Part shown: piece by piece, positions 19,109 through 35,472 of the stretch
Layout: every line of letters starts with the position of its first letter
Position numbering within the stretch: the first letter of the stretch is position 1
Assembly (NCBI RefSeq): GCF_025244865.1
Contig: NZ_CP104272.1
Coordinates: forward strand, 2,790,001-2,854,000
Length of the DNA: 64,000 nt
Direction of reading: 5' to 3'
Source: Arthrobacter sp. zg-Y1110
GTDB lineage: Bacteria; Actinomycetota; Actinomycetes; Actinomycetales; Micrococcaceae
Program-made: the position numbers and the translations under genes
Notes under the pieces: generated by a model
What the model was told of the DNA's origin: nothing
Database searches by the model: none
The model's input: only the letters and a program-made list of their open reading frames with translations

Positions 19109-19114
19109 TGTTTG

Positions 19115-19188
19115 TAGCGGTGGGGAGGCTCGATCTCCCGACCTCACGATTATGAGTCGTGCGCTCTAACCAACTGAGCTACACCGCC
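19115..19188 (-). tRNA. tRNA-Met (CAT), elongator type
   Basis: A 74-nt cloverleaf on the minus strand. Acceptor GGCGGTG pairs with CACCGCT (last pair G-U). The D arm is GCTCAGTTGGTTAGAGC. The anticodon loop is CTCATAA with anticodon CAT. The T arm is GGGAG/CTCCC. No CCA is encoded. The first T-loop base (position 54) is A rather than the nearly universal T. The A-U/G-C-rich acceptor and standard 7-bp pairing speak against initiator tRNA. Confidence 0.93.
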
Positions 19189-19264
19189 AAAAATGAGTAA
19201 AGCCCGCCCTACATAGGCCTCTGCAAAAACAAACAGCCTTAGCAACGCGGGCCCTCCCATTGAG

Positions 19265-19336
19265 AGCCCCGACCGGGAATCGATCCCGGGACCTCCATCT
19301 TACCAAGATGGCGCTCTACCACTGAGCTATCGGGGC
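19265..19336 (-). tRNA. tRNA-Thr (GGT)
   Basis: A 72-nt cloverleaf on the minus strand. Acceptor GCCCCGA/TCGGGGC, anticodon stem CCATC/GATGG with loop TTGGTAA (anticodon GGT), and T arm CCGGG/CCCGG with loop ATCGATT. CCA is not encoded. It is transcribed ahead of tRNA-Met with a 76-bp spacer, so a common precursor is likely. Confidence 0.94.
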
Positions 19337-29611: not shown

Positions 29612-29736
29612 GTGACCCACGGTACTTCTTCCTTCCCGCTGTGGCATGGGGGACGGAACGCGGCGTAGCAAAAGCCACAATCGGGGCAGCCAGCAGTGCG
29701 GGCAGAAGCGGGGGTGGTACGTGCAACGATAGTTGC

Positions 29737-30717
29737 ATGTCCTTCACTGCCGCTGTTCCAGCGCTGCAGCAGGCTCACTCCGGTCTGGTGCGCTGCTGGG
29801 AGTCCCCCGCCCCGTACTGCCTGCAGACTTCGCTGCGCATCCTGGTCCGCGGTAAGCAGGATCCGACCATCCGCCTCGGCCCGGGTGTTGCGTGGCTGGC
29901 CTTCCTCACCCCGGAGGGTCCGGCCACCCTGAACCTTCGCGAGGAACCCGTCCCGGCCCCCGGCGCACGGGTCCGCGCCCAGGCCTGGGGACCGGGTGCC
30001 CGGTGCGCGCTGGACTCGGTACCCGCCCTGCTGGGCGAACACGACGACTGGTCCGGCTTCGACGACGAGGCGTTCCTCGCCACCCTGCCCCGAATGGTCA
30101 CCGAGACCCGGCGCCGGAACCTCTCCCTGCGGCTGCCGAGCACGGGCCGGATCATGGACAGCCTGATCCCTGTGGTGCTGGAGCAGAAAGTCACCGTGCT
30201 GGAGGCCTACTACGCCTGGCGCTACCTGGTGACCCGCTACGGCGTTGATGCACCCGGCCCGGCGCCGTCGGGCATGAAAGCCTCCCCTGCCCCGGAGACC
30301 TGGCGGAAGATCCCCAGCTGGGACTGGCACCGGGCACGGGTGGACCTCTCCCGTTCCACCACCATCCTGCGGGCCTGTGCACTCGCCTCGGGGCTGGAGC
30401 GGCTGGCCGGGGATCCGCTCGGCGAGGAGCTGACCGCCAAGCTCTGCTCGGTGCCGGGAATCGGCGTGTGGAGCGCTGCGGAAATCACCCAGCGGACACA
30501 CGGCGCTCCGGATTCCGTCTCCGTTGGCGACTACCATCTGGCCGCCTACGTGGGCGCGGCCCTCACCGGGAAGCGGACCGACGACGCCGGCATGCTGGAG
30601 CTGCTCGCACCCTGGCGGGGCCACCGCCAGCGGGTGGTGCGGATGATCATGCTCAGCGGTTACCGCAAACCCACCTACGGGCCGAAGCTCGCCCCGATGG
30701 ATCACCGCCGACGCTGA
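29737..30717 (+). CDS. DNA-3-methyladenine glycosylase II-like (HhH-GPD)
   Basis: A 326-residue AlkA-like base-excision enzyme. The helix-hairpin-helix LCSVPGIGVWSA is at about 236-247, with the catalytic Asp265 in SVSVGDYHLAAYV. An N-terminal beta domain precedes it. It should release alkylated purines from DNA. Start uncertain: ATG 29737 has no strong Shine-Dalgarno sequence, and an in-frame ATG lies ~90 bp upstream close to the divergent cbs start. Confidence 0.87.
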   Translation: MSFTAAVPALQQAHSGLVRCWESPAPYCLQTSLRILVRGKQDPTIRLGPGVAWLAFLTPEGPATLNLREEPVPAPGARVRAQAWGPGARCALDSVPALLGEHDDWSGFDDEAFLATLPRMVTETRRRNLSLRLPSTGRIMDSLIPVVLEQKVTVLEAYYAWRYLVTRYGVDAPGPAPSGMKASPAPETWRKIPSWDWHRARVDLSRSTTILRACALASGLERLAGDPLGEELTAKLCSVPGIGVWSAAEITQRTHGAPDSVSVGDYHLAAYVGAALTGKRTDDAGMLELLAPWRGHRQRVVRMIMLSGYRKPTYGPKLAPMDHRRR

Positions 30718-31063: not shown

Positions 31064-32656
31064 TCAGTTCGGGGCGATTGCCATCCGGTAGATGGATTCG
31101 GGTTCCGCCCCGAACCGTTTCAGCACCGCGACCACCGCTTCCTCATGATCTGAGTCCACCGCTGCCTGCACCCGGAACCGCTCATCGAAATCGATGAGGC
31201 GCTTTTCGCTGCGGAAAGAATCGGTCCGGATCTTCCCGGAGTAGACAGCGGTGTCGGAGAGCTCCAGGGAGCGGGCGCCGGCCATCAGCAGCGCGTCCCG
31301 CAGCCCGTCAATGCGCTCGGTGTTGACCACCGCGCTGACGACATGGCTGGGTGCGGAGTGCCGGACGTCACCGCCGGGGCTTCCGTCCACCGCCGCCCGG
31401 CCTGCTGCCGTGGGCCGGGCGCTGATGCCGCTGAGTGAATATGCGGACGAGTCCTGCTGGACGCGGTCAAGGTCCTCCTGCTCCGGACCCGGCTCCTTCA
31501 GCCCTATGGTCCGGGAAATGACGGCGGCAACAATCCAGCTGAGCACGAAGGAGAAGAGCACCACGGAAACGAGGGCCACGATCTGGTGCCACAGCAGCAT
31601 TCCCCCGCCGCCGGAGAAGATGCCGTCATCTCCGGCCGGGTTCACTGAACTGTCCCCGAAGAAACCCAGCAGGAAGGACCCCAGCACACCGCCCACGAAA
31701 TGGACGGCAATGACGTCCAGGGCGTCGTCGTAATGCAGGACGCTCTTGAGCCGCACCGCCACCACGCACACGCATCCCGCGATCAGTCCGATCAGCAGGG
31801 CCGCCCCGGTGCCGACATAGCCTGCGCAGGGCGTGATGGTGGCCAGGCCCGCAACTGCACCGGAAATGGCTCCTACCAGCGTGCAGTGTCCTCTGGTGAT
31901 CCGCTCCACAAGCAACCAGGTGAGCATCGCGGCCGATCCTGCCACGTGGGTATTGATCAGCGCCTGCGCGGCAATGTCGTTGGCCTGCAGCCCGTCACCC
32001 GCATTGAATCCGAACCACCCGAACCAGAGAATGCCACCGCCCACCAGCATCAGCGGAAGGTTGTTGGGCGAGTTCCGAAGGTTGGGCCACCCGCGCCGCC
32101 GGCCCACCACCAGCAGCACCGCCACGGCGGCGGCACCCGCGGAGGCGTGCACCACCATGCCGCCGGCCCAGTCCTGGGCACCGAGCTGGAACAGCCAACC
32201 CTTTGGATGCCAGAGCCAGCGCGCCACCTGCGGATAGACCAGGATGGAGAATGCTGCAAGGAAAACCACCCAGCCGGCGAACCGGAGCCTGCCGGCTGTC
32301 GCGCCGGTGAGCAGTGCGGGAGTGATCACCGCGAACATCATCTGGTAGGCCACGAAGGCCAGCGTTGGAATGGTCACGCCCGCCGCAACGGTGTGGAACT
32401 GCGGAGTGTCGACGTCGATAAGCGCAAAGGCATCGAATTCGCCGAGCACGGAGTTGCCCCGGTTGCTGAAGGCCAGGGTGTACCCGACCAGGATCCAGGT
32501 CACCGAGATGATTCCGAGCGGGATGATGTTCTGCATCAGCATGGTCAGGACGTTACGGACCGGAACCATCCCGCCGTAGAAGAGTGCCAGGCCCGGGGTC
32601 ATAAACAGCACCAGCCCGGCGCAGATCAGCACCCACGCGGTGTCCGCCCCGTTCAT
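31064..32656 (-). CDS. amt: ammonium transporter with C-terminal PII-like domain
   Basis: A 530-residue protein, about 100 longer than usual Amt. Residues 1-385 are the 11-span channel: FYGGMVPVRN near 27, pore His170 and His319 (AGGMVVHASAG and DVIAVHFVGGVLG), GWFGFNAG, and the cytoplasmic tail EQEDLDRVQQDSSAY. After a Ser/Gly/Ala linker (~410-437), residues 438-530 resemble a GlnB/PII fold: HVVSAVVNTERIDGLRDALLMAG, a TAVYSGKIR strand-loop, FRVQAAVDSDHEEAVVAVLKRFG. The usual T-loop uridylylation Tyr cannot be identified. Such a domain would let the channel sense its own regulatory signal (inference). GGGGAGG precedes the ATG. Confidence 0.92.
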   Translation of the reverse strand: MNGADTAWVLICAGLVLFMTPGLALFYGGMVPVRNVLTMLMQNIIPLGIISVTWILVGYTLAFSNRGNSVLGEFDAFALIDVDTPQFHTVAAGVTIPTLAFVAYQMMFAVITPALLTGATAGRLRFAGWVVFLAAFSILVYPQVARWLWHPKGWLFQLGAQDWAGGMVVHASAGAAAVAVLLVVGRRRGWPNLRNSPNNLPLMLVGGGILWFGWFGFNAGDGLQANDIAAQALINTHVAGSAAMLTWLLVERITRGHCTLVGAISGAVAGLATITPCAGYVGTGAALLIGLIAGCVCVVAVRLKSVLHYDDALDVIAVHFVGGVLGSFLLGFFGDSSVNPAGDDGIFSGGGGMLLWHQIVALVSVVLFSFVLSWIVAAVISRTIGLKEPGPEQEDLDRVQQDSSAYSLSGISARPTAAGRAAVDGSPGGDVRHSAPSHVVSAVVNTERIDGLRDALLMAGARSLELSDTAVYSGKIRTDSFRSEKRLIDFDERFRVQAAVDSDHEEAVVAVLKRFGAEPESIYRMAIAPN

Positions 32657-35385: not shown

Positions 35386-35390
35386 GTCTG

Positions 35391-35472
35391 TGGCAGATAC
35401 TGGATTCGAACCAGTGAAGGCGTTGCCAGCTGATTTACAGTCAGCCCCCTTTGGCCGCTCGGGTAATCTGCC
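35391..35472 (-). tRNA. tRNA-Tyr (GTA)
   Basis: An 82-nt class II tRNA on the minus strand. Acceptor GGCAGAT/ATCTGCC, anticodon loop CTGTAAA (anticodon GTA) on stem CTGA/TCAG, a long variable arm as expected for Tyr, T loop TTCGAAT, discriminator A. CCA is not encoded. The ~170 bp between it and the next gene hold no other feature I can see. Confidence 0.95.

Follow-up and report, generated by a model that had tools for sequence, protein, structure and literature searches.

An Arthrobacter ammonium transporter with a fused, degenerate PII-like domain that retains the T-loop tip and lacks the nucleotide-binding loop

An ammonium transporter (Amt) of Arthrobacter sp. zg-Y1110 carries a degenerate PII-like domain covalently attached to the C-terminal side of its channel. 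The gene lies in a window of 64,000 nucleotides (the whole stretch of DNA analysed) and is, as originally predicted, an open reading frame of 530 amino acids on the minus strand (31064..32656, with the stop codon at 31064-31066). It is close to certain that the tail is a fused PII-like domain. At the sequence level, the case consists of the fusion, the predicted PII-like fold, the retained plug tip, the lost ligand and modification sites, and genus-wide purifying selection. From the kept T-loop tip together with the lost pocket we infer a constitutive or conformation-gated self-plug, and propose with moderate confidence that the fused protein may act as a self-docking, ligand-blind plug on its own Amt. 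The features are located in Table 1.

Table 1 Features of the fused Amt gene in the window
Feature	Position	Strand	Basis
Amt channel, residues 1-385, twin His170/His319	31502..32656	-	PF00909, TIGR00836, pore-residue alignment to EcAmtB
Asp221, at the Ser219 position of the S1 ammonium site (periplasmic side)	31994..31996	-	Alignment, family counts
Altered Amt C-terminal region, residues 386-407 (EcAmtB H399 -> Q401)	31436..31501	-	Aligned to EcAmtB and the two paralogues of the genome
Variable linker, residues 408-437	31346..31435	-	Column entropy, length range, dN/dS
Degenerate PII-like domain, residues 438-530	31067..31345	-	Profile search, AF2 model, Foldseek, profile-profile comparison
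T-loop, residues 473-490	31187..31240	-	Alignment, one residue shorter than GlnK T-loop; hairpin with low-confidence tip in model
Arg482 at the GlnK Arg47 (pore-plug) position	31211..31213	-	Arg in 33/33 tails
Arg486 replacing the modified Tyr51	31199..31201	-	Arg in 33/33 tails

The channel domain belongs to the Amt/Mep/Rh family by profile, with the curated cut-offs exceeded across the channel. PF00909 covers residues 7-406 (1.1e-100, 337.6 bits, cut-off 23.2), and TIGR00836 scores 378 bits, above its cut-off of 343.3. In the alignment with E. coli AmtB (EcAmtB, reference L064), the predicted pore residues His170 and His319 coincide with His168 and His318, the twin His. F108 and F217 form the Phe gate, D162 corresponds to Asp160, and W149 is the Trp of the S1 site. 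The EcAmtB pore residues F107, W148, D160, H168, F215, and H318 are thus all retained, which supports the self-plug reading. Since the Phe gate and the twin His are intact, transport by the fused channel is likely kept. The S1 site (F107/W148/S219) is incomplete, with F108 and W149 retained and S219 changed to D221. Asp occupies this position in 34 of the 35 fused proteins (Ala in the remaining one); Ser is found in 22/22 readable relatives (24 loci given, two unread) and in 13/13 Amt ORFs from 11 nearer relatives. The genome's own amtB paralogue also lacks the Ser, having Ala222, and S219 is therefore taken as a variable site that is no bar to Amt membership. The Asp could alter affinity or selectivity, an effect that is not predictable because S219A in AmtB increased transport according to a passage of PMC10433425.

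The original prediction that residues 438-530 resemble PII is supported by a family-profile match and by a predicted strand-helix fold. The window tail alone stays below the Pfam P-II threshold (PF00543, 15.4-15.5 bits, gathering cut-off 25), and the family profile is what recovers PII. Individually, 23/33 tails reach E<=0.1 against P-II (best 2.4e-4), compared with 5/33 that weakly match HisG_C. A single-sequence PDB search with the tail finds PII at E 0.0012, with a few chance matches further down, and the profile of 33 tails finds PII chains with a best E of 3.7e-6. Of the 27 matches listed for this profile, 26 bear the name PII, GlnK or nitrogen regulatory protein, and one only 'Signaling protein'. 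Profile-profile comparison of the tails with PII by hhalign gives 95.9% (P 5.9e-9), against 0.1% for a reversed profile and 0.2-0.9% for five column-shuffled profiles. Moreover, the AF2 model of the tail (pLDDT 80.6) has a predicted strand-helix-strand-strand-helix-strand fold, that of PII. Foldseek with a tail model built without canonical PII rows returns PII chains only among the 50 matches listed, and the match to GlnK chain 2ns1_B has an E of 7.9e-5. In structural realignment, PstA, CutA, LarC2, NIF3, and HisG domains tie with PII, so that this list alone cannot single out PII. On the whole fused protein, Pfam at E<=10 lists the channel as sole family, with no fused signalling-enzyme domain of the Ks-Amt5 type. 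The predicted tethering of a PII-like regulator to the Amt is supported, as a covalent C-terminal fusion. The model of the full-length protein is poor (mean pLDDT 48), which counts against the self-plug reading.

The tail was compared with GlnK in an alignment of 33 tails, with five PII rows as helpers; one of these, P0059, was trimmed incorrectly. The T-loop is near full length, and in all 33 tails GlnK E44 is Glu or Asp, Y46 is Phe, and R47 remains Arg, so the Arg47 feature of the PII T-loop is present. This tip counts for the self-plug reading. Arg47 of GlnK is described as crucial for entering the Amt channel in a part of PMC3198391, and as blocking conduction in a part of PMC4274968. The latter also describes GlnK R47A as still associated with AmtB, and the retained Arg alone is therefore no proof of plugging. 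The absence of a uridylylation Tyr, part of the original prediction, holds throughout, Tyr51 being Arg in 33/33 tails. Its suggestion of control by nucleotide finds no support, because the ligand site is gone: the nucleotide-binding B-loop (GlnK 82-90) is deleted in 33/33 tails, T29 is Glu in 33/33, G37 falls in a gap, R38 is changed or lost, and Q39 is lost. Published passages on GlnK describe Gln39 and Lys58 as switching with ADP/ATP/2-oxoglutarate. The final ~15 tail residues are not safely alignable with GlnK, which leaves the equivalence of R101 with tail R88 and the loss of R103 unsure.

Domain and linker differ in constraint. The linker (residues 408-436) ranges from 27 to 82 residues across 35 proteins. 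Mean column entropy is 0.33 for the channel, 0.57 for the C-terminal region, 1.77 for the linker, and 0.73 for the tail. The corresponding median dN/dS values, rough because dS is ~0.9, are 0.09 (135 pairs), 0.19 (127), 0.45 (119), and 0.24 (136); they derive from 17 genes and 136 pairs, with pairs of dS outside 0.1-2.0 removed. The stronger constraint on the tail than on the linker counts for the self-plug reading, whereas its faster evolution relative to the channel counts against it. In addition, 28 columns are invariant among 33 distinct tails. By these sequence measures, the tail is a domain under constraint, held by a loose tether.

As originally predicted, neither glnK nor glnD lies beside the fused gene, and the sole canonical PII gene is ~0.55 Mb away beside another amt. 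The genome encodes two further normal Amts and this one canonical GlnK, which retains Tyr51; exactly one canonical PII match occurs in each of 29 genomes of the genus. Profile searches with TIGR01693 and PF08335 found no convincing GlnD in 29/29 genomes of the genus. With TIGR01693, 0/29 genomes exceed the cut-off (best 36.6 bits vs 519.4, partial matches only), a cut-off that by itself is no test because only two of the five matching control genomes pass it (14 controls, C. glutamicum among the matching ones). PF08335 gives two matches in the own genome, both within one 1022-aa frame that we take to be GlnE, and C. glutamicum is among three matching controls. GlnK of the genus may work without covalent modification. 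A simple pattern scan for GlnR/AmtR motifs upstream of the three own amt genes found no box at the fused gene; its single hit, a relaxed GlnR-like match, precedes amtB-glnK.

In the mechanism that we propose, a dedicated Amt paralogue would have taken up its PII partner as a covalently linked domain at the C-terminal end. The tails, three of them gathered by the Amt trimer, would pack beneath the cytoplasmic face, and their three T-loops would face the three pore exits, with Arg482 at the place of GlnK Arg47. With the nucleotide/2-oxoglutarate pocket lost and the modified Tyr replaced, plugging would no longer report ATP/ADP, 2-oxoglutarate or GlnD. The domain may set a built-in low or gated conductance via local concentration and channel conformation, and the altered C-terminal region together with the acidic S1 site might be the conformational element of this gating. 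The fused domain would also keep the cell's free GlnK off the fused channel. In a distinctly doubtful extension, external ammonium bound at the acidic recruitment site, Asp221, would move the channel so that it drives out its own T-loop, making an ammonium-gated ammonium channel independent of the cell's nitrogen state.

Other roles of the fused domain have to be weighed against self-plugging. The domain might do no more than cover the face where GlnK docks, leaving the pore unplugged, so that this Amt stays open while GlnK shuts the others. The single canonical PII match per genome and the two further Amts fit such an arrangement, as do the loss of the ligand pocket and Tyr51 from the tail and the alteration of the Amt C-terminal region, which in E. 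coli is needed for GlnK binding (Severi et al., cited in a passage of PMC3831643). Shielding alone, however, would have no need for the T-loop tip TE-x-FR, yet the tip is almost invariant, and we consider this role unlikely. Rather less likely, the channel may sense external ammonium at Asp221, with the PII-like domain as output to a cytoplasmic partner, as in Ks-Amt5. Asp at the S219 position does mark the fused set (34/35 vs 0/22 and 0/13 outside), many charged tail residues are invariant, and parts of PMC5764959 provide the precedent of an Amt-histidine kinase. The site described there for Ks-Amt5, however, lies elsewhere in the membrane (E31, D50), the intact Phe gate and twin His make retained transport likely in the fused channel, and the neighbouring genes tested include no obvious partner.

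The last two alternatives concern the tail itself. Elsewhere in the PII fold, proteins such as PstA or CutA bind different ligands or metals, and the tail might still sense a small ligand at a non-canonical site, unlike canonical PII. PstA, CutA, and LarC2 score equal to PII in the structural realignment, and tail R26, E29, R88, and H68/E69, which do not vary among the 33 tails, could line a cleft. These three families are nevertheless absent among the PDB matches listed for the tail profile, and the HisG_C matches of single tails are few and weak beside those to P-II; we hold such sensing to be very unlikely. It is scarcely credible that the tail is a decaying, functionless relic of a read-through fusion. 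Its long branch and the sub-threshold Pfam score of the window tail would fit decay, but the invariant columns, the purifying selection, and the presence of the fusion in every genome of the genus (29/29) speak against it. Self-plugging remains the reading that we prefer.

One close likeness is to GlnK-AmtB of E. coli (2NS1, 2NUU), which combines the same two modules and has the T-loop Arg at the GlnK Arg47 position. GlnK and AmtB, however, are two separate proteins whose reversible binding is set by ADP/ATP/2-oxoglutarate and Tyr51, whereas the Arthrobacter protein is covalent and has neither the nucleotide B-loop nor Tyr51. Actinobacterial amt-glnK pairs (L094-L098, L102, L103, and the own amtB-glnK) share the Amt-then-PII order of the fusion, but comprise two genes with a canonical PII, and their S219 position is Ser in the nearest relatives and Ala in the own amtB. 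According to parts of PMC5764959, the Ks-Amt5 sensor likewise has a C-terminally fused soluble domain and no adjacent glnK, but differs in having a histidine kinase in place of PII, a closed pore, and an extra cation site. Passages of PMC10710835 describe two further parallels. In SbtA-SbtB, a trimeric PII-like protein locks a trimeric transporter, for bicarbonate, but the proteins are separate and the locking is AMP-dependent. In LacS, a normally separate regulator (an EIIA-like domain) is likewise fused to the transporter it controls, but is still regulated, by phosphorylation.

Natural fusions of Amt with other domains were seen earlier (a passage of PMC5764959, citing Tremblay and Hallenbeck 2009). 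For an Amt-PII fusion, no title or abstract was found in the open-licence literature, a weak negative, and the keyword-matched parts of the reviews PMC10710835 and PMC10433425 do not mention a fused PII. The Arthrobacter protein seems to turn a separate on/off regulator into a fixed channel part. Two PII roles would be separated in a stable natural fusion, with the plug kept and the sensing pocket lost. The fusion lets one ask whether T-loop insertion alone suffices to set Amt flux, and bears on whether an Amt can be gated from outside; whether Amt acts as transporter or sensor is still debated according to a part of PMC12918730. It also offers an Amt-PII construct of fixed stoichiometry for structural work.

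The fusion is found in 29/29 genomes of Arthrobacter (E<=1.8e-47). Searched against 5.8 billion proteins, the tail region yields 342 candidates, of which 34 are relatives at E<=1. Every one of these is an Amt-tail fusion, 515-583 aa long, and each of the 16 that carry an organism name is from Arthrobacter. All 34 are annotated with PF00909 only, and Pfam annotation thus overlooks the PII-like tail. In a sample of the family (295 genomes), 24 genomes of the genus score E<=1.8e-47, and the 20 other matching genomes stay at E>=5.9e-9, which is as far as separate PII genes get. No fusion was met outside the genus in samples of the order (396 genomes; best outside match 6.5e-11, a 129-aa open frame) and the phylum (396 genomes; 9.2e-12, a 116-aa open frame). 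In the large samples, scoring was confined to the top 13-17 candidates of each genome, so a weak relative could be missed. Scanning 84,980 species genomes by pattern gives 16 loci, all Arthrobacter. Separately, a tail-only profile search matches two stand-alone ORFs (P0036, 88 aa, on a 5.0-kb contig, and P0037, 87 aa, on a 1.6-kb contig), which are either broken fusions or free tails.

Pfam may list architectures that combine Ammonium_transp with P-II. E. coli GlnK, used in a length-matched search, retrieved 3133 proteins, the best 120 of which were compared with Amt. Among these 120, 33 match Amt, PII being N-terminal (the glnK-amtB order) in 29/33, and none has a complete Amt with a clean C-terminal PII; the 120 probably include single-member read-throughs caused by sequencing errors. 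In P0095, P0124, P0130, and P0145, PII follows the Amt match, which covers only part of the channel. P0038, a further one of the 120, carries PF00909 in its Pfam column, and at 341 aa is too short for a whole channel. Outside the genus, PII also matches within open frames of 469-678 aa; in 10/10 loci examined PII and Amt are in different frames, and are hence neighbouring genes. A Paenibacillus plasmid match (96% query coverage, one piece) likewise consists of two genes, the tandem amt and glnK of Paenibacillus cellulosilyticus (L084:3863-5650), which share a reading frame and are separated by 6 nt.

Channel identity in the family sample (120 genomes) is 83-86% within the genus and <=49% outside it (full-length matches), and the nearest outside relatives, from a class sample of 296 genomes, reach 52-57%. 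None of the 11 nearest outside loci examined is fused (0/11). A PII gene lies just downstream in 7/11, overlapping the amt stop codon or beginning within ~12 nt of it, and these tailless relatives followed by glnK suggest how the fusion arose. The tail profile scores other actinobacterial PII at up to 46.9 bits (L086) vs 30.9 bits for the own GlnK. Recent descent from the own amtB-glnK pair is rejected, as that channel is only 40.6% identical and the fused set stands on a long branch. The likeliest origin, as far as such comparisons indicate, is the in-frame joining of an amt-glnK pair that was either foreign or retained from ancient times. In the channel tree, the fused set (branch of 0.72 substitutions per site) groups beside E. 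coli and Paenibacillus, a placement probably due to long-branch attraction; the tail tree, with a branch of 1.78, is uninformative.

The gene neighbourhood is conserved among the 16 named Arthrobacter loci. Dehydrogenase and thioredoxin genes lie beside the Amt in 16/16, two PLP-enzyme genes in 13/16, and MarR and ABM genes in 12/16 each, some missing neighbours in these counts being due to locus ends. The neighbour provisionally labelled AlkA, a guess, has no Pfam match at 1e-5. An ORF of 358 aa at 29641-30717 of the window (plus strand), with no Pfam match at E<=1e-5, has matches of 62-96% identity in 13/16 of these loci. The window also contains tRNA genes for Tyr (35390-35472), Met (19114-19188), and Thr (19264-19336).
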